DNA of 6,745 nt from Deltaproteobacteria bacterium (lineage in GTDB: Bacteria; Bdellovibrionota_F; JAHFAK01), in assembly GCA_023250585.1 (NCBI GenBank), contig JAHFAK010000019.1:1-6745 (forward strand). Direction: 5' to 3'. Shown one piece after another: positions 1 to 6,745 of this stretch. Below the pieces are notes generated by a model. The model was not told where the DNA came from. It made no database searches and saw only the letters and a program-made list of their open reading frames with translations. Each line of letters begins with the position of its first letter. Position 1 is the first letter of the stretch. The position numbers were made by a program, and so were the translations under genes.

Positions 1-144
1 ACAACTAAAAAAAAGGATGGTAATAAAAAAAATGCAGAGGATATTTTTGAATTGAATCATTACAAAAATTTAACAAATTATTTTCCGGAAATAAAGAAGT
101 ATAAAATAAATGAATGTGTATCAGCTCAGTTAATGGGGGAGTAA
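1..144 (+). CDS. C-terminal end of an unknown Lys-rich protein (5' truncated)
   Basis: Frame 1 is open from the first base to a TAA at 142-144, giving 47 residues that begin TTKKKDGNKKNAED and end SAQLMGE. The segment is hydrophilic and rich in Lys and Asn, with no membrane segment or motif I recognise, so no function is proposed. It is probably a real gene end because the frame stays open, the composition is protein-like, and the stop lies exactly at the edge of hairpin element A. The same arrangement of a hairpin hugging a stop codon recurs at the helicase gene and at the 121-residue exported protein. The gene converges on ahcY. A chance open frame cannot be excluded because the start is outside the window. 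Confidence 0.5.
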   Translation, partial: TTKKKDGNKKNAEDIFELNHYKNLTNYFPEIKKYKINECVSAQLMGE

Positions 145-259
145 TGGTGAAGATATGTTCTAAAAAAGTATTTCTATCGATCGCGCTTTCCTGTTCTTAA
201 TAGTATTATGGAAGCGACGTCGATAGAAATACTTTTTTAGAACATATCTTCACCTTACT
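140..259. repeat. Long hairpin element A: conserved 39-nt core with locus-specific arms
   Basis: Positions 146-180 and 220-254 are perfect 35-nt inverted repeats. The pairing continues to 140-144/255-259 after a single bulged T at 145, so each arm is about 40 nt. The centre, 181-219, starts TCGCGCTTTCCTG and ends ATTATGGAAGCGACG. It can fold further: CGCTTTCC (184-191) pairs with GGAAGCG (210-216) with one bulged T, leaving an 18-nt apical loop and a 3x3 internal loop next to the arms. The same core occurs inverted at 4715-4753 with different arms. It lies between two convergent genes and overlaps the stop codon of the left one. A terminator role is plausible, but no T-tract follows either end. 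Confidence 0.9.
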
Positions 260-284
260 AACTGCGGGATTACATGAACGTGTC

Positions 285-1544
285 TTATGTCCCAGCGCTA
301 TAATCAGAAAGGTATTGCTCTTGAGCTTTTGTTAATGCATCGATTTTTATATCCATAGTACCAAGTTTTAATCGCGCAATTTCCTGATCTTGAGCTGCTG
401 GAATAGTGTAGACAGTATTCTCTAATTTATTGCCTTCTTTTTTAAGTCGAACAAGCGAAAGCAATTGATTAGCAAAACTCATATCCATAACCTCAGATGG
501 ATGTCCTTCAGCTGCTGAAAGATTTACAAGTCGCCCTTGAGCGAGAATAAAAATATGTTTTCCATTGGTAAGCGTATATTCTTCGCATGATGTTCGAATA
601 AGACGTATCTCTTTTGTGATTTCAGCTAATTCTTTTAAATTAATTTCACAATCGTAATGGCCGGTATTACAAATGATTGCTCCTTCTTTCATATGACCAA
701 AATGTCTGCCAACAATAACATCTTTCATACCGGTTGCAGTAATAAAAATATCCCCAATTTTTACAGCTTCGTCCATTGTCATTACTTTAAACCCTTCAAG
801 GCGGGCCTTAAGCGCTTGAATTGGATTTATTTCAGTAACAATAACTTCTGCACCCATACCTCGAGCACGTAATGCAACTCCTTTTCCGCAATGTCCATAA
901 CCACCAATGACTACGTTTTTACCTGCAAATAAAACGCTCGTTGCGCGAATGACACCATCGAGGGTGGATTGACCGGTTCCATATACGTTATCAAAATCCC
1001 ATTTCGTTTCCGCATCATTGACCGCGATGACTGGATATTTGAGAGCCTTATCAGCAGCCATAGCGCGCAGGCGATGCACACCGGTTGTTGTTTCTTCAGT
1101 GCCACCAATTATATATTCCGCAAGTTCAGGATGTTTTTTATGAACGGTAAAAATGAGATCCGCTCCATCATCAAGAGTTAATGTTGGTTTGAATTCCAGT
1201 GTTTTATCAATACACCAATAAAACTCTTCTGTGTTCATGCCATTCCATGCATATATTGAAATTCCTTCGCTCGCTAATGCTGCGGCAATATCATCCTGTG
1301 TAGAAAGAGGGTTACATCCACTCCAGCTTACTTCAGCTCCAGCAGCAATAATAGTTTTAATTAATACTGCAGTTTCTTTCGTTACATGTAAACAACCTGC
1401 TACGCGCATACCAACGAGTGGTTTTTCTTTCATAAACCGTTTGCGATATTCTCCAAGTACAGGCATGCGAGATTCTGCCCAACGAATTTTATTTTTTCCA
1501 GATTCAGCGAGTGAGAGGTCTTTGACTTTGTAGTTAGTTGCCAT
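285..1544 (-). CDS. ahcY: S-adenosylhomocysteine hydrolase (adenosylhomocysteinase)
   Basis: This cytosolic NAD-dependent enzyme splits S-adenosylhomocysteine into adenosine and homocysteine, relieving product inhibition of methyltransferases. From the ATG at 1544 it is 419 residues. This is the short form that lacks the roughly 40-residue insertion of the longer proteobacterial type. Visible signatures are CLHVTKET near residue 51, DDGADL near 125, EETTTGV near 150, and NDAETKWDFDN near 176 (catalytic Lys/Asp/Asn cluster of the family). The Rossmann motif GYGHCGKG lies at 215-222, CNTGHYDCEI near 292, and the C-terminal EGHPSEVMDMSFANQ near 356. An in-frame ATG at 1562 would add MKRKSI. I prefer 1544 because AAAAGGA precedes it at good spacing, whereas 1562 has only pyrimidine-rich CTTCTTTT upstream. 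It lies 108 nt downstream of metK, probably co-transcribed, with a large hairpin in between. Confidence 0.96.
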   Translation of the reverse strand: MATNYKVKDLSLAESGKNKIRWAESRMPVLGEYRKRFMKEKPLVGMRVAGCLHVTKETAVLIKTIIAAGAEVSWSGCNPLSTQDDIAAALASEGISIYAWNGMNTEEFYWCIDKTLEFKPTLTLDDGADLIFTVHKKHPELAEYIIGGTEETTTGVHRLRAMAADKALKYPVIAVNDAETKWDFDNVYGTGQSTLDGVIRATSVLFAGKNVVIGGYGHCGKGVALRARGMGAEVIVTEINPIQALKARLEGFKVMTMDEAVKIGDIFITATGMKDVIVGRHFGHMKEGAIICNTGHYDCEINLKELAEITKEIRLIRTSCEEYTLTNGKHIFILAQGRLVNLSAAEGHPSEVMDMSFANQLLSLVRLKKEGNKLENTVYTIPAAQDQEIARLKLGTMDIKIDALTKAQEQYLSDYSAGT

Positions 1545-1550
1545 AATAGA

Positions 1551-1559
1551 TTTCCTTTT
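1551..1559 (-). promoter_or_regulatory. Ribosome binding site that fixes the ahcY start
   Basis: On the - strand the sequence reads AAAAGGAAA, followed by 8 nt and then the ATG at 1544. The alternative upstream ATG at 1562 has no purine-rich Shine-Dalgarno, because CTTCTTTT directly precedes it. This supports the shorter AhcY beginning MATNYKVKDLS, which also matches where conserved family sequence begins. Confidence 0.65.
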
Positions 1560-1569
1560 CATAAAAGAA

Positions 1570-1647
1570 GGTGAGCGGTTAGAGGTATACGGTTAGCGTC
1601 TGAGAAAAATTTTCTTAGGCGCTTACCCGAACCGAAAACCGCTCACC
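1570..1647 (-). terminator. Large intergenic hairpin between metK and ahcY (attenuator or terminator candidate)
   Basis: The outer arms GGTGAGCGGTT (1570-1580) and AACCGCTCACC (1637-1647) are perfectly complementary. Inside them CGGTT (1590-1594) can pair with AACCG (1630-1634), and 1595-1608 pairs with the AT-rich 3' half ending GGCGCT with two wobble positions. On the - strand the structure begins 5 nt after the metK stop and is followed by TTCTTTT, a short T-rich run resembling a weak intrinsic terminator. It then leads directly into the ahcY ribosome binding site. It could end part of the metK transcripts, set the metK:ahcY ratio, or stabilise the upstream message. It does not resemble the SAH riboswitch consensus as I remember it. 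Confidence 0.5.
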
Positions 1648-1652
1648 GAAGT

Positions 1653-2831
1653 TTATTTTGCATTAAAAAACGATTTTAATTCAGTGACTTTATCGGTTTT
1701 TTCCCAATTGAAGCCATCTTCTTCTCTTCCAAAATGGCCATACGCAGCTGTTTGTTTATATTTTGGTTTGAGTAAATCAAGATGGTTAATAATACCTCGA
1801 GGTTTTAAAGGGAAAATTTCCCGAACCGCTTGTACAAGTTTGAGTTCATCCACTGTTGAAGTTCCACGAGTATTAACAAGTACTGAAACAGGATCTGCTA
1901 TACCAATTGCATAGGCGAATTGAACTTCACAGACAGAGGCAAGTCCTGCTGCAACAATATTTTTTGCAACATAACGAGCCATGTAGCATGCGCTGCGATC
2001 TACTTTTGATGGATCTTTCCCTGAAAAGCATCCGCCACCATGTGCACCCATACCACCATACGTATCAACAATAATCTTTCGGCCGGTTAAACCACAGTCA
2101 CCTTTTGGCCCGCCCACAACAAATCGTCCCGTTGGATTAACGTGGAACACCGTATCTTTTGTTAAATATTGTTCAGGAACAACAGGCTTAATAATTTTTT
2201 CTATAACTGCTTCACGAAGTGTTGAATAACTCACGCTATCTTTGTGTTGAGTAGAAATAACAACATTTTCAACGGCTACGGGTTTTCCATTCATATAACG
2301 AATTGAAATCTGGCTTTTTCCATCAGGACGTAAGAAATCCAGTTCTTGTGCTTTTCTTACCTGCGAAAGTTTTCTTGTTAATTTGTGTGCCCAATGAATA
2401 GGAGTGGGCATGAGTTCTTTAGTTTCATTGCATGCATATCCAAACATAATGCCTTGATCACCTGCCCCTTGTTCTTTTTCCTTATTCGTATGCTCATTGA
2501 CACCGAGTGCAATATCAGGGGATTGTTTTCCAATTGCTGTAATAACGGAACAGGTTTCCCAATCGAAACCCATAGCTGAATCATTGTAGCCAATCTCTTT
2601 TATTGTTTCGCGAACAACCTGTGGCATATCAACATAACAATTGGTTGTAATTTCTCCTGCTATAAGAGCCATACCTGTAGTTACTAATGTTTCGCATGCA
2701 ACCCGGGCATGTTTATCTTGTTTAAATATTTCATCTAAGATTGCGTCTGAAATTTGGTCAGCAACTTTATCGGGATGACCCTCGGTTACTGATTCTGAAG
2801 TGAAAATATAATCACTCGCATTTTTGATCAT
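1653..2831 (-). CDS. metK: S-adenosylmethionine synthetase (methionine adenosyltransferase)
   Basis: This cytosolic enzyme makes S-adenosylmethionine from ATP and methionine, releasing phosphate and pyrophosphate. At 392 residues it is full length for bacterial MetK. Signatures in order are [15 protein letters not shown] (16-30, ATP/Mg binding His and Asp), [12 protein letters not shown] (122-133), [17 protein letters not shown] (244-260), [19 protein letters not shown] (262-280) and GHFGRE near 365. Cys replaces the more common Ala or small residue in GDCGLTG, GGGCFSG and RSACYMARY. These are tolerated-looking changes with all charged catalytic residues kept. The ATG at 2831 is preceded by AGAGGAG at about 7 nt, a strong ribosome site, and by a sigma70-like promoter at 2865-2892. 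Family members act as tetramers. It is the first gene of a likely metK-ahcY unit. Confidence 0.98.
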
Positions 2832-2864
2832 AGTATACTCCTCTGTTATTGATTAAGGTTTTCG

Positions 2865-2892
2865 AGAATATACTATTTGCGATTGATGTCAA
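2865..2892 (-). promoter_or_regulatory. Sigma70-like promoter of metK
   Basis: Read on the - strand, TTGACA (2892-2887) is a perfect -35. A 16-nt spacer follows, then TATTCT (2870-2865), a 4/6 match to the -10 consensus. Transcription would begin near 2858, giving a 5' leader of only about 27 nt that carries the AGAGGAG ribosome site. That leaves no room for a SAM riboswitch, so any SAM feedback would have to act elsewhere. Confidence 0.65.
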
Positions 2893-2915
2893 GAAAAGGG
2901 TAAGGGCGAGGGACT

Positions 2916-2934
2916 CTCTGAAAAACTCATATTT
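2916..2934. repeat. Repeat fragment, copy 1 of CTCTGAAAAACTCRTATTT
   Basis: The 19-nt string CTCTGAAAAACTCATATTT recurs with a single change (A to G) at 3867-3885. Its first part, CTCTGAAAAA, also matches the terminal sequence of the adjacent 122-nt palindrome: the complement of 3047-3056 reads CTCTGAAAAA. It is probably a remnant or end of the same repeat family, lying just upstream of the metK promoter. Confidence 0.6.
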
Positions 2935-2938
2935 CAAG

Positions 2939-3060
2939 GAACCTCTCAAAAAGGTCCAGATGCAAGGCGCACGCGAAGCCGCAACCGGAGCATCCTCGCA
3001 TAGTATGTGAGGATTGTGGTTTTGCGTGCAACGATGCAGATGGGCCTTTTTCAGAGGTTC
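2939..3060. repeat. 122-nt imperfect palindrome, MITE-like repeat
   Basis: The ends GAACCTCT (2939-2946) and AGAGGTTC (3053-3060) are inverted copies. Pairing continues through AAAAAGG/CCTTTTT and CC/GG with one mismatch and one wobble, giving about 20 outer base pairs. Further blocks pair inward: TGCA, GCACGC/GCGTGC, and an apex TCCTCGCA/TGTGAGGA with a 5-nt loop. The left arm is clearly richer in G and C than the neighbouring DNA. It contains no convincing gene. It begins 1 nt past the stop of the 121-residue gene, so it may also serve as that gene's terminator. The family is not identified. Confidence 0.75.
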
Positions 3061-3061
3061 T

Positions 3062-3427
3062 CTAGTTAAGAAGAACAATGCCTAAATCTTCTATACTGAT
3101 TAATCGGCCATCTAATTGCGAAAGTATTGTTTTACAGTCACTACTGAGAGAAGGATCTTGAAGATACGATTCTAAGTCGCCAGAAGTAGAGAATTTTACT
3201 CCTTCTTTAGATTCGGTATTATTCTTATTTAAGCATTCTTGCGCCTTTTTTACTAATGAGAAATCAATGTTTGATCCAAAGGGGCATTGCTCTCCAACTC
3301 CTATGGGAATTTCTTGCGCAACGTTTGAACTATCAGTGGATGCAAATACTTTTGCTGCAATGAGGACTGAGCTCGAGAGCAAAAATACTACTACAATGCC
3401 GAGAAGAATGAGTTTTTTACGTACCAT
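3062..3427 (-). CDS. Small exported protein with three cysteines, function unknown
   Basis: The 121 residues start with a classical signal peptide: MVRKK, a hydrophobic run to about residue 25, and a plausible cleavage after AKVFA at 29. The mature part is about 92 residues, hydrophilic, with Cys48, Cys65 and Cys98. The segment EQCPFGSN followed by QEC aligns with the 80-residue neighbour encoded at 3612-3854: identical 17-residue Cys spacing and shared Glu, Gly, Asn, Ile/Val and Gln. A second block, GVKFSTSGDL, aligns with AVVLDSEGNL. They look like divergent paralogues. The start at 3427 is supported by GGAGGA 6 nt upstream. A TATAAT promoter lies about 70 nt upstream and the 122-nt palindrome follows the stop directly. 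A periplasmic or secreted location is inferred; I do not recognise the family. Confidence 0.8.
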   Translation of the reverse strand: MVRKKLILLGIVVVFLLSSSVLIAAKVFASTDSSNVAQEIPIGVGEQCPFGSNIDFSLVKKAQECLNKNNTESKEGVKFSTSGDLESYLQDPSLSSDCKTILSQLDGRLISIEDLGIVLLN

Positions 3428-3444
3428 ATAGATTCCTCCAATTC

Positions 3445-3464
3445 AGAGATAGATACTTATCTCT
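3445..3464. promoter_or_regulatory. Small palindrome in the leader of the 121-residue gene
   Basis: AGAGATA (3445-3451) and TATCTCT (3458-3464) are perfect inverted copies around a 6-nt gap. The palindrome lies between the predicted transcription start (near 3489) and the ribosome site. It could be a repressor operator or a leader hairpin. It is short, so chance is possible. Confidence 0.35.
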
Positions 3465-3495
3465 CACTATTTAGATTATGCAGAATCCATGCCAA

Positions 3496-3525
3496 ATTAT
3501 AACAAAAAAATTACAGCACAACCAA
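3496..3525 (-). promoter_or_regulatory. Extended -10 promoter for the 121-residue exported protein
   Basis: On the - strand a perfect TATAAT (3501-3496) is preceded by TGT, forming the extended -10 element TGnTATAAT. A weak -35, TTGGTT (3525-3520), lies 18 nt upstream. The predicted start near 3489 gives a leader of about 60 nt containing the 3445-3464 palindrome. An independent promoter suggests this gene is not simply read through from the 80-residue gene. Confidence 0.55.
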
Positions 3526-3552
3526 TTGATATTATTATTATTTATCTCTAAC

Positions 3553-3589
3553 GCTTTAAAGAATTGTGTCACATGCTTCTCTTTAAAGC
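3553..3589 (-). terminator. Hairpin downstream of the 80-residue gene
   Basis: GCTTTAAAG (3553-3561) and CTTTAAAGC (3581-3589) form a perfect 9-bp stem around a 19-nt loop. It begins about 20 nt past the stop of the 80-residue gene on the - strand. No T-tract follows it in the direction of transcription, so a terminator role is tentative. The rest of the interval 3428-3611 contains the promoter of the next gene and nothing else that I can identify. Confidence 0.35.
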
Positions 3590-3611
3590 ACATTATGGCT
3601 GCAATTTTTTC

Positions 3612-3854
3612 CTATTCGCATTCGATAGTTTCTATGGGAACTTCGGTTAGATTTCCTTCTGAATCAAGAACAACGGCGTTCTTTTTAACCGTCGTACACT
3701 GCTGTTCTTCGCTTTCAACACCCTCACCTACATTAGCACCTTCAGCACATGGTTCATCTCCACCGGTAACATCTACCGAAGTATTATTACTTGGCCGAGC
3801 TATTATGGTGGAAGAAAAAAGAAAGAAGAAAAAAACAAGTGTAATTTTGAACAT
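3612..3854 (-). CDS. Small exported protein with three cysteines, paralogue of the 121-residue neighbour
   Basis: This 80-residue product begins with a short signal peptide: MFKI, a Phe-rich hydrophobic core, and likely cleavage after SSTIIA at residue 19. The mature part of about 61 residues is acidic with Cys36, Cys53 and Cys79, the last next to the C-terminus (IECE). Residues 34-53 match residues 46-65 of the neighbouring 121-residue protein in Cys spacing (17) and at Glu, Gly, Asn, Val/Ile and Gln. AVVLDSEGNL matches GVKFSTSGDL. The start at 3854 is the first ATG and gives a proper signal peptide. Its ribosome site is weak: AGAGGG about 10 nt upstream, contributed by the repeat fragment at 3867-3885. 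An odd number of Cys suggests pairing with a partner or one free thiol. I do not recognise the family. Confidence 0.7.
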   Translation of the reverse strand: MFKITLVFFFFLFSSTIIARPSNNTSVDVTGGDEPCAEGANVGEGVESEEQQCTTVKKNAVVLDSEGNLTEVPIETIECE

Positions 3855-3866
3855 ATTTTAGGGGCC

Positions 3867-3885
3867 CTCTGAAAAACTCGTATTT
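3867..3885. repeat. Repeat fragment, copy 2 of CTCTGAAAAACTCRTATTT
   Basis: CTCTGAAAAACTCGTATTT matches 2916-2934 at 18 of 19 positions in the same orientation. It lies in the leader of the 80-residue gene, and its complement supplies the only purine-rich ribosome-site candidate (AGAGGG). Confidence 0.6.
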
Positions 3886-3899
3886 AAAGTTAAAACACA

Positions 3900-3905
3900 A
3901 TTATA
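3900..3905 (-). promoter_or_regulatory. Candidate -10 box for the 80-residue exported protein
   Basis: A perfect TATAAT is present on the - strand about 46 nt upstream of the start codon, predicting transcription from near 3893. No good -35 is visible at 16-18 nt, where the DNA is an AT-rich stretch. The background is AT-rich, so this is a moderate call. Confidence 0.4.
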
Positions 3906-3957
3906 AGAAGCTAACTTATTATTTATATTAAAAAATTCTGCTCCTTAATCTAATGGG

Positions 3958-4650
3958 TTAATGGAAAATTCTTTCATCATGATCGTCCTGTACGGTAAGT
4001 CTTCTCCATTCTTTTTTCATTCCCCGAATATTTAAATTACCACCAAACCATAAAAGATAAATTAAACCAACGAGCATTCCTCCAAGGTGGGTAATGTGAC
4101 TAATCCCATCTTGGGCATAACTAATAGTCGACATAAATTCAATAAAGGCAAAAATGACAACCATGAATTTTACTTTCATAGGGAAAATAAACATCATAAG
4201 AACCATCCTGTTGGGAAAAAAGAGTCCATAGGCAAGCAAAAGACCATAAATTGCTCCCGATGCTCCAACGACAGGAATCAATGAATTATGAGAAAAGATA
4301 CACGTAAAAATTCCTGAACCGATTCCACACAAAAGATAATAGAAAAGAAATTTCCTACTTCCCATAGTGTATTCAATCTCGCCACCAAACATTGAAATGA
4401 CAAACATATTGAGAAGTACATGCATGGGTCCGCCATGAAGAAACATATAGGAAATTAACTGATAGACAAAGAAATTATGAGTAACATCGAGGGGGATGAG
4501 CCCCAAATAAACAATCAGAGGAATTCCCTGAAGCTGCAAAAGTACCTGCAGGACATACACAACAACACTCACAATAATAATTTTTTTCACCATCGGAGTC
4601 ATGGGGCCGGTAAAACTAAATTGTGGTCTATAGGTATATCGTTCGTGCAT
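3958..4650 (-). CDS. Rhomboid-family intramembrane serine protease
   Basis: This 230-residue integral inner-membrane protein has about six hydrophobic segments, starting at residues 22-40. Rhomboids cut other membrane proteins within the bilayer using a Ser/His dyad. The family motifs are intact: HGGPMHVLLNM (72-82, oxyanion-type His and Asn), GASGAIYG (129-136, catalytic Ser131) and HITHLGGMLVG (185-195, catalytic His188 in HLGG). All expected catalytic residues are present, so it should be active. The short hydrophilic N-terminus (MHERYTYRPQFSF) and the charged C-terminal tail, ending DDHDERIFH, should lie in the cytoplasm. The ATG at 4650 has GAGGA about 6 nt upstream. No clear promoter is visible between it and hairpin element B, so it may be read from the helicase gene through the hairpin. 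Substrate unknown. Confidence 0.93.
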   Translation of the reverse strand: MHERYTYRPQFSFTGPMTPMVKKIIIVSVVVYVLQVLLQLQGIPLIVYLGLIPLDVTHNFFVYQLISYMFLHGGPMHVLLNMFVISMFGGEIEYTMGSRKFLFYYLLCGIGSGIFTCIFSHNSLIPVVGASGAIYGLLLAYGLFFPNRMVLMMFIFPMKVKFMVVIFAFIEFMSTISYAQDGISHITHLGGMLVGLIYLLWFGGNLNIRGMKKEWRRLTVQDDHDERIFH

Positions 4651-4674
4651 AACAATTCCTCAACTTTATTTATG

Positions 4675-4793
4675 TAGGGGAGGAGTTATATCTGCTCTTT
4701 TCATTTTATACCGACGTCGCTTCCATAATAATTTTAAGAACAGGAAAGCGCGATCGGTATAAAATGAAAAGAGCAGATATAACTCCTCCCCTA
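4675..4793. repeat. Long hairpin element B: conserved 39-nt core (inverted) with different arms
   Basis: Positions 4675-4714 and 4754-4793 are perfect 40-nt inverted repeats. The 39-nt centre (4715-4753), read on the - strand, is identical to the core of element A at 37 of 39 positions. The two differences fall in the apical loop (TAG versus AAT). The innermost three arm bases (CGA/TCG) are also shared, so the conserved unit is about 45 nt. Beyond that the arms bear no resemblance to those of element A. It occupies nearly all of the 151-nt gap between the helicase stop (8 nt away) and the rhomboid ribosome site. No T-tract follows on either strand. Confidence 0.93.
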
Positions 4794-4801
4794 AGAATTC
4801 T

Positions 4802-6745
4802 TCAGTAACTCACTTCGCTCATTTGCGGACTAACCGTAACTTCTAATAAATTTTTGGGAATATCCTTAATAAAACTGGTGGGCATATTGTAATGAACACT
4901 CCCAAAAATTCTTCGTAATCGGCATGATGAAAGAGAGAGACTTTTACGAGCTCGTGTAATTCCGACATAACACAGCCGTCGTTCTTCTTCGTATTCTTCA
5001 AGACTATCCATTGAACGCGAATGAGGAAAAAGTCCTTCTTCCATTCCAATCATAATGATATGATCAAACTCAAGCCCTTTTGCGCAGTGAATAGTCATAA
5101 GCGTAATTTTATCCTCGGTTTCTTGCAATCGATCCGTATCGCTCACCAAAGAAACTTTTTCTAAAAATTGTGAAAGCGTATGATCTTTATTTTCATTAAA
5201 GTATTCATAGATCGCTTCTAAAAATTCAGTAATATTTTCTTTGCGCGATTCAGCTTCAAATTTTTCAAGGCCATTTAATGTCCCCCAATAGCCACTGTCA
5301 TTAAGTAATTTTCTTACCCATTCATGGGGCGGAATTGTAGCCTTTGAGGTTCGAACTTGATTGAAAAGATCATATTCTTTTTTTATTTTTTCGCTACTTG
5401 CGCCTGTATTCGCTTCGGTAAATATTCTCAATGCTTCAAGATAATCCGTCCCGTGTTCATTTTTTACCCAATCAATTTTCTCAATTGTTTTATCGCCAAT
5501 TCCCTTTTTGCCAATTTTTACAATTCTGCGGAAACTAATTCCATCGTACGGATTTTCCAAGAAACGTAAATATGCGAGAATGTCTTTGATTTCTTTTCTC
5601 TCATAAAATTTGAATCCACCAAACATAGCATAGGGAATACCATGCTTAATCAGCTCTTCTTCAACAACGCGTGATTGCGCATTCGTTCGGTAAAAAATAG
5701 CAACGTTACGATATTGCCCATCTTCGGTGGCTAACTCTTCTATTTTTTCTATAACAAATCGCGCTTCATCTTTTTCATCGAGGGCCAAATGATAATTAAT
5801 TTTTTCCCCAACTTCGTTTTCTGTCCACAACGTTTTTGAAAGCCGCTGTGTATTTTTGAGAACTACACTTGAGGCTGCCTGAAGAATAAGCTTGGTTGAG
5901 CGATAATTCTGTTCGAGTTTAATAATCTTGGTATTTTTAAAATCATCTTGGAAGTGAAGAATATTGTCGATATTCGCACCTCGCCAGCGATAAATAGATT
6001 GATCATCATCGCCAACGACGGTAACACCGAGCTTATTACCGACTAACAGCTTAACTAATGTATATTGAATCACATTCGTATCTTGAAACTCATCAACAAA
6101 AATATACGGCCATTTATCGTAATAACTTGAGTGTACTTCTTTATGCTCACTAAAAAGATCGACAACTTTTCCAATGAGATCTCCAAAATCAAGGCTGTTA
6201 CTCTTCAACAACTTTTTTTCGTACAGCTCAATTACTTCATAAATCTTTTTATCAATGAAATTATAATCCGTTACTTCTTCCCGAGCTTTTTTTAAAGACA
6301 ACCCATTATTTTTTAAATGATCAATTTTATCTAACACGGAAAAAGGTTTTATTGATTTTTCACCGATATTTAATTCTTTTAAACATTCACGAACAAGTGT
6401 TGCCTGATCATGTTTGTCGATAATATTAAAGTTCGAATCATACCCAATAAGATCAGCATGCTTTCGTAAAATACGCGCACACAGAGCATGAAATGTTCCT
6501 ACCCAAATATTCTGGGGGATTGAAGCGCCAAGCTTGAGAATTCTATTTCTCATTTCTTGTGCAGCTTTATTCGTAAAGGTCATCGCAAGAAAACCATAAG
6601 GACTTACTTTTCCTTCCATCAAGAGATAGGCAATTTTATGAGTTATTGTCTTTGTCTTCCCGCTACCCGCACCTGCAAGAATTAAGAGCGGCCCTTCAGT
6701 ATATAACACAGCTTCTTTTTGCTTTGGATTTAATGTATCGAGTAT
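4802..6745 (-). CDS. UvrD/Rep/PcrA-type superfamily 1A DNA helicase (5' end outside window)
   Basis: This is an ATP-dependent 3'-5' DNA helicase of the UvrD/Rep/PcrA group, acting in repair and replication restart. The frame is open to the right edge. The first visible residues, ILDTLNPKQKEAV, match the family N-terminus, so only a few residues are missing and the GTG at 6709 is internal. Motifs, numbered from the first visible residue: Walker A GAGSGKT (25-31), TFTNKAAQEM (Ia, 56-65), VDEFQDT (II, 217-223), GDDDQSIYRWRGA (III, 245-257), QNYRST (IV, 279-284), TIHCAKGLEF (V) and RRLCYVGITRARK (VI). After motif VI only 46 residues remain. The linker and C-terminal module of typical PcrA, about 70 or more residues, are absent, so the length (about 650) is closer to Rep. 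The stop at 4802 is 8 nt from hairpin element B. Confidence 0.96.
   Translation of the reverse strand: MLDTLNPKQKEAVLYTEGPLLILAGAGSGKTKTITHKIAYLLMEGKVSPYGFLAMTFTNKAAQEMRNRILKLGASIPQNIWVGTFHALCARILRKHADLIGYDSNFNIIDKHDQATLVRECLKELNIGEKSIKPFSVLDKIDHLKNNGLSLKKAREEVTDYNFIDKKIYEVIELYEKKLLKSNSLDFGDLIGKVVDLFSEHKEVHSSYYDKWPYIFVDEFQDTNVIQYTLVKLLVGNKLGVTVVGDDDQSIYRWRGANIDNILHFQDDFKNTKIIKLEQNYRSTKLILQAASSVVLKNTQRLSKTLWTENEVGEKINYHLALDEKDEARFVIEKIEELATEDGQYRNVAIFYRTNAQSRVVEEELIKHGIPYAMFGGFKFYERKEIKDILAYLRFLENPYDGISFRRIVKIGKKGIGDKTIEKIDWVKNEHGTDYLEALRIFTEANTGASSEKIKKEYDLFNQVRTSKATIPPHEWVRKLLNDSGYWGTLNGLEKFEAESRKENITEFLEAIYEYFNENKDHTLSQFLEKVSLVSDTDRLQETEDKITLMTIHCAKGLEFDHIIMIGMEEGLFPHSRSMDSLEEYEEERRLCYVGITRARKSLSLSSCRLRRIFGSVHYNMPTSFIKDIPKNLLEVTVSPQMSEVSY

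Follow-up and report, generated by a model that had tools for sequence, protein, structure and literature searches.

Two long palindromes, element A (140–259) and element B (4675–4793), lie in the first 6,745 nucleotides of contig JAHFAK010000019.1 of a Deltaproteobacteria bacterium (GenBank assembly GCA_023250585.1; Bdellovibrionota_F, JAHFAK01 in GTDB), a stretch hereafter called the window. They raise the question of how two hairpins can share a conserved apex, in opposite orientations, and carry it on near-perfect arms that seem unrelated. We find that A and B belong to a single dispersed family of long palindromes in the intergenic DNA of one isolated bacterial lineage, that this palindromic repeat family is new, and that about half of its copies are classical miniature inverted-repeat transposable elements (MITEs). 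The best explanation, which we regard as probable from the patterns of change in the sequences, is that the arms co-evolve by replication template switching between inverted-repeat arms, a process that would also invert the apex.

The preliminary description of the window was sound on the general form of the two elements. Both are palindromic, with single-stranded DNA folding well separated from that of shuffled sequences (z = −16.2 for A and −15.6 for B), and both have long perfect arms: the stem of B is fully paired over 40 bp, and that of A has 35 perfectly paired bp with a few further pairs outside them. The common 39-nt centre, matching at 37 of 39 positions in opposite orientation, is also present, but its extent had been drawn too short: positions 171–229 and 4705–4763 agree at 90% over 59 nt. 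The statement that the arms share nothing further stands for the pair A and B only and does not extend to the 79 copies described below, among which an arm consensus is found. A and B seem unrelated because they represent two subfamilies, an A-run subfamily (A) and a T-run subfamily (B).

A genome-wide search for the core, proposed in the preliminary description, was carried out over 2,240,314 bases in 164 contigs. The core pattern had 35 exact matches and its reversed control pattern had none, which excludes chance; 45 matches were found when up to three mismatches were allowed, and inverted arms of ~38 bp accompany nearly every copy. A covariance model built from 30 copies identified at least 79 distinct hairpins in the 2.24-Mb genome, a number that is a lower bound (a first look scored 150 candidates). 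The same model had no match in one genome of the same class, the core pattern had none in the same-class genome, in 143 other genomes searched or in the GTDB contig collection, and element A had none in plasmid or phage records. Viral contigs yielded 23 matches to a 16-mer, about the level expected by chance, with the hairpin in none of them, and the sole weak model match there (E 0.0055) sits elsewhere on its contig. The lineage looks isolated, as the best match of its adenosylhomocysteinase in the GTDB contigs has just 74% identity.

The copies fall into two types. In type 1 (~40 copies, including A), the hairpin is the interior of a ~157-bp element with 15-bp terminal repeats, consensus GTAATNNCTCAGTTA, at both ends; this consensus has 95 matches with at most one mismatch, against six for the reversed control. 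Target duplications of 8 bp are general in type 1: their identity is 0.77, against 0.30 in mismatched pairs, and 16 of the 39 are exact. Other lengths give identities of 0.27–0.36. Type 1 copies thus show both of the MITE features tested, terminal inverted repeats and a target duplication of fixed length, and element A is the middle of such a larger unit, a MITE at 118–273. An open frame entering at the contig edge (window 1–142) reaches into this MITE, from which its final residues and stop codon derive. Termini beginning with GTAA and 8-bp target duplications are the signature of IS66, and type 1 copies would accordingly have been moved by a transposase with IS66-like ends. No complete autonomous partner was seen between terminal repeats; a ~1-kb repeat pair in contig C42, considered as a full-length autonomous copy, encloses an unrelated gene and consists of two separate MITEs. 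A different palindrome (GGATCCCG...CGGGATGAC) is also found between the same MITE ends (L113, L119, L121, L221–L224, L226, L229), where the total is often 156–158 bp, and the recurrence of this total for two different palindromes hints at a size limit for movement.

Type 2 comprises ~33 solo hairpins, including B. Their terminal-repeat signal is not above that of the control and no trace of MITE ends was found, so that a reading of solo copies as decayed MITEs is unproven. They also have no target duplication of 3–12 bp and hence lack the features that define MITE membership, and no conserved target or tetranucleotide was found at the base of the stem. Nearly all copies of the family are intergenic and, with genes taken as long open frames and not from a trained gene finder, convergent, codirectional and divergent contexts are all present; between codirectional neighbours, 19 cores point in the direction of the genes and 17 in the opposite direction.

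The anatomy of the hairpin is uniform. Nearly every copy has a stem of ~37–40 bp, typically ~38 bp, with bulges adjacent to the apex (G/T/A-CG on the 5′ side, ACG or one-base variants on the 3′ side); inside the bulges, a short inner stem with one bulged T leads to an 18-nt loop. The core is 33 nt long and the whole palindrome ~117 nt. From outside to inside, the arm consensus consists of a purine-rich end, ATATGTTC or similar, an A or T run, and TATCGA. The early impression that arms are private to each locus was therefore an effect of the small sample. It had been further suggested that insertion of the core creates, from ~40 nt of the local sequence, an inverted duplication, for which the great diversity of the outer arm halves of solo copies (48% mean pairwise divergence) might speak. 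However, inner arm halves differ by just 14–23%, arms of 37–40 bp with a common consensus in nearly all copies are not copies of local DNA, and type 1 hairpins sit within conserved MITE ends; we consider this mode of origin extremely unlikely. The preliminary description had also held that arms common to different copies would make the family an ordinary MITE or terminator family. For about half of the copies a MITE is indeed what we find, but the coupled evolution of the arms still exceeds what that term covers.

Within a copy, the median arm mismatch is 0, whereas between copies the arms diverge by a mean of 19% in type 1 and 39% in solo copies (means that exclude badly mended copies). Among the 30 copies, 98.3% of cells are paired, with 315 cells changed on both sides of the pair against four changed on one side (wobble states); none of 500 shuffles and no slid register came near the observed pairing. 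Non-palindromic flanks of type 1 diverge by 22–28%, and cores by 10% in type 1 and 15% in solo copies. Taken together with the arm values, this means that drift of the arms is roughly as fast as that of the DNA next to them and that the core evolves ~2–2.5 times more slowly without being frozen. The core variants TTCC, ACCCC, GTCT and TTCT occur in both types and are spread near-randomly on the arm tree (14 changes vs 15.2 when shuffled), which suggests core exchange between copies; the core would thus be either moderately constrained or exchanged.

When both sides of a stem covary, this is commonly taken as proof of selection for RNA structure. One alternative is thus that the arms owe their pairing to selection for a structured RNA that needs both the stem and the conserved loop (a terminator, mRNA stabiliser, RNase III site or small RNA). 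Strong covariation, a core slower than the arms and a very stable RNA fold (z = −14.6 and −17.5) speak for it. The manner of the covariation, however, argues otherwise: G·U intermediates are almost absent (the four one-sided vs 315 two-sided changes), and mismatches on the core strand over all copies are G·U in 34 cases and A·C in 33, which indicates no RNA-like tolerance; under selection for an RNA stem, G·U states would be expected to be frequent and, on the functional strand, to exceed A·C states. The genomic setting is equally unfavourable, since orientation among codirectional genes is unbiased and many copies lie between divergent genes; these divergent contexts, together with the lack of a T run after the stem in the flanks inspected, led us to reject a terminator. 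No Rfam family reached its gathering score, the sub-threshold matches being plant and animal microRNA hairpins. Overall, we hold selection for a structured RNA to be very unlikely. The possibility that the 5′ arm and core encode a small peptide (frame ATGTTC...) was also rejected, as several type 1 copies have AAG and several solo copies ATC in place of the ATG, and the two types differ in frame.

Template switching offers a mutational route to the same pairing. Replication would switch template within or between the arms, so that one arm is copied onto the other and complementarity is kept, and a like switch between strands would invert the segment between the arms. Arms recopied in this manner would look private yet near-perfect, and selection for pairing would not be required. 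Template switching between inverted-repeat arms is reported to have two outcomes, homogenised arms and an inverted spacer (PMC8604942), and it has been put forward as a process by which hairpins are maintained (PMC8794818).

Besides the paired changes without intermediates, we favour this mechanism because of four further kinds of observation. First, apex bulges have been healed to perfect pairs, as CGT/ACG in L168 (= L071), L193+ and L206, and in the opposite direction, as GCG/CGC, in L182 (= L018). Second, the homogenised tract extends outward in L162, L156 and L195, where one MITE flank has been replaced by the other. Third, the apex has flipped: the asymmetric core occurs in two orientations with respect to the MITE ends (18:22), with at least seven changes of orientation on the element tree (6–10 across bootstraps), fewer than the 13.5 for shuffled labels but well above a single change, the MITE-end labels for orientation and tree having been set by eye; L175 and L181 are near-identical copies with opposite cores. 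Fourth, two different arm versions are present within each of L184, L187, L207, L211 and L213, as would be expected of recent exchange between copies that has yet to be mended. The preliminary description had offered, for a conserved apex, stems kept paired either by selection or by template-switch correction; arm pairing, healed bulges and the inverted apex speak for the second form.

Several points weigh against template switching. It is deduced from copies within one genome, and no event has been observed directly. The element tree is weakly resolved, and its firm branches force only two orientation changes. Apex bulges are kept in 72 of 77 copies although the arms just outside them have been mended, so that unguided template switching needs the addition of selection or of a favoured start point: the apex would be under selection, or switching would begin outside it. 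Survival of long palindromes would be helped by the state of SbcCD in this genome, in which SbcC was not detected and SbcD is weak and below the cut-off; yet the class relative G001, also without recognised SbcCD, has no hairpin with arms of at least 18 bp in 386 kb. Finally, an IS66 transposase (IS66 DDE family) is absent from the assembly, other transposase families not having been searched.

The solo copies bring in a further alternative, namely a mobile hairpin whose bulged apex serves for recognition of the folded single strand (cf. IS200/IS605 ends, repetitive extragenic palindromic [REP] elements and attC sites), with the arms recopied at each move and the MITE copies being secondary captures. 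The asymmetric bulges and loop would give the folded strand polarity, the solo copies are free of terminal repeats and target duplications, and the genome contains Y1 transposases (four genes). Additionally, a second hairpin family, with five copies, combines an unrelated apex (TTTGCTTCCTCTTATAAAACTTCACTGAGCAAA) with variable arms that resemble those of the main family in style and pair in the same way, which indicates that the hairpin plan is not tied to one core. Nevertheless, none of the four Y1 genes has a copy nearby, over the ~1.3–1.9 kb that reach to the locus ends, and the stem base shows no conserved target or tetranucleotide; we judge the mobile hairpin unlikely. In its broadest form, which seems to us quite unlikely, the genome would host at least two families of apex-recognised mobile hairpins that move in single-stranded form. 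Each move would involve resynthesis of one arm on the other, the arms being a by-product and the apex alone the element.

Compared with known systems, the family behaves like inverted repeats homogenised by template switching (PMC8604942, PMC8794818, PMC7202029), with which it shares arms that are identical within and different between copies, spacer inversion, and compensatory changes without intermediates. In that literature the arms are short and belong to individual loci or RNA genes; the present case, read from sequence patterns, comprises at least 79 dispersed copies that have 38-bp arms and a common apex. Type 1 copies resemble bacterial MITEs with IS66-like ends in size, absence of a gene, terminal repeats starting with GTAA and 8-bp duplications, but the missing IS66 transposase and the ~33 hairpins without such ends set the family apart. 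ERIC/RU-1, YPAL and other stem-loop repeats (PMC2267715, PMC2759123) are likewise intergenic, ~120–170 bp long and formed by one long stem-loop; they are described as families of similar sequence, whereas here the arms diverge widely, pairing is kept and the apex is most conserved. REP/REPIN elements with Y1 transposases (PMC3116915, PMC8266576, PMC3733652) are also dispersed extragenic palindromes with an imperfect stem, but they measure 20–40 bp and carry a GTAG or CGTC tag, in contrast to a ~38-bp stem with no tag seen; moreover, the four Y1 loci contain no hairpin and the stem foot has no conserved base, which argues against membership of the REP/RAYT group. Integron attC sites are characterised by conserved recombination boxes at the stem foot and by an integron integrase; in the present hairpins, conservation is at the apex and not at the foot. 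The nearest descriptive parallel found is that of the organelle palindromic repeats of Volvox (PMC2670323), which are dispersed noncoding hairpins with constant loops (TAAA/TTTA) and stems of variable length, although their loops of 3–5 nt differ from a 33-nt core with bulges. Yeast GC42 elements (PMC4478555), also dispersed noncoding hairpins, have the opposite pattern of conserved stems and variable loops.

Coordinates of the elements in the window and of the second hairpin family
Feature	Position	Strand	Remarks
Left target-site duplication ATGAATGT	110–117		7/8 match to ATGAACGT at 274–281
Left terminal inverted repeat GTATCAGCTCAGTTA	118–132	+	Consensus GTAATNNCTCAGTTA; element length 156
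Element A, 5′ arm	146–180	+	35 bp, perfect pairing with 220–254
Element A, apex	181–219	+	Bulge region TCG, core CGCTTTCCTGTTCTTAATAGTATTATGGAAGCG (184–216), bulge region ACG
Element A, 3′ arm	220–254	+	Partner of 146–180
Right terminal inverted repeat TAACTGCGGGATTAC	259–273	−	
Right target-site duplication ATGAACGT	274–281		8 bp
Element B, arm (3′ arm on core strand)	4675–4714	−	40 bp, perfect pairing with 4754–4793
Element B, apex	4715–4753	−	Core 4718–4750 on minus strand, bulge regions on both sides
Element B, arm (5′ arm on core strand)	4754–4793	−	Solo hairpin without terminal repeats
Second-family hairpins	L170:1201–1310, L208:4810–4915, L316–L320 near position 1500		Apex TTTGCTTCCTCTTATAAAACTTCACTGAGCAAA

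Element B is located between a rhomboid gene (3958–4650) and a UvrD-type helicase gene (4802–6709). The chimeric copies L211 and L213 have ~30 bp in common beyond the MITE end in their right flanks (GAAGGTGTGAA.AAATCAAG.AGAGCT) and may lie in a larger duplicated unit. Repeats of other kinds were also seen. One dispersed repeat occupies window positions 2909–3063 and 3860–3889 (CTCTGAAAAACTCATATTT..., with ends AGGGACTCTCTGAAAAA / TTTTTCAGAGGTTCTCT) and has a related ~126-bp copy at L176:4741–4866; another, unrelated kind consists of long perfect palindromes with the conserved arm sequence GACCGAAAGTTGCCGGGCACGTTTCAG (L169:173–292, L222:3134–3229).

The covariation in this family is strong, almost without wobble intermediates and without strand bias, and it goes together with conversion tracts and inverted apices; mutation is the best reading of its origin. 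A chromosome without a recognised full SbcCD can carry dozens of near-perfect 117-nt palindromes, and these hairpins constitute a ready test set for distinguishing covariation due to template switching from covariation due to selection.

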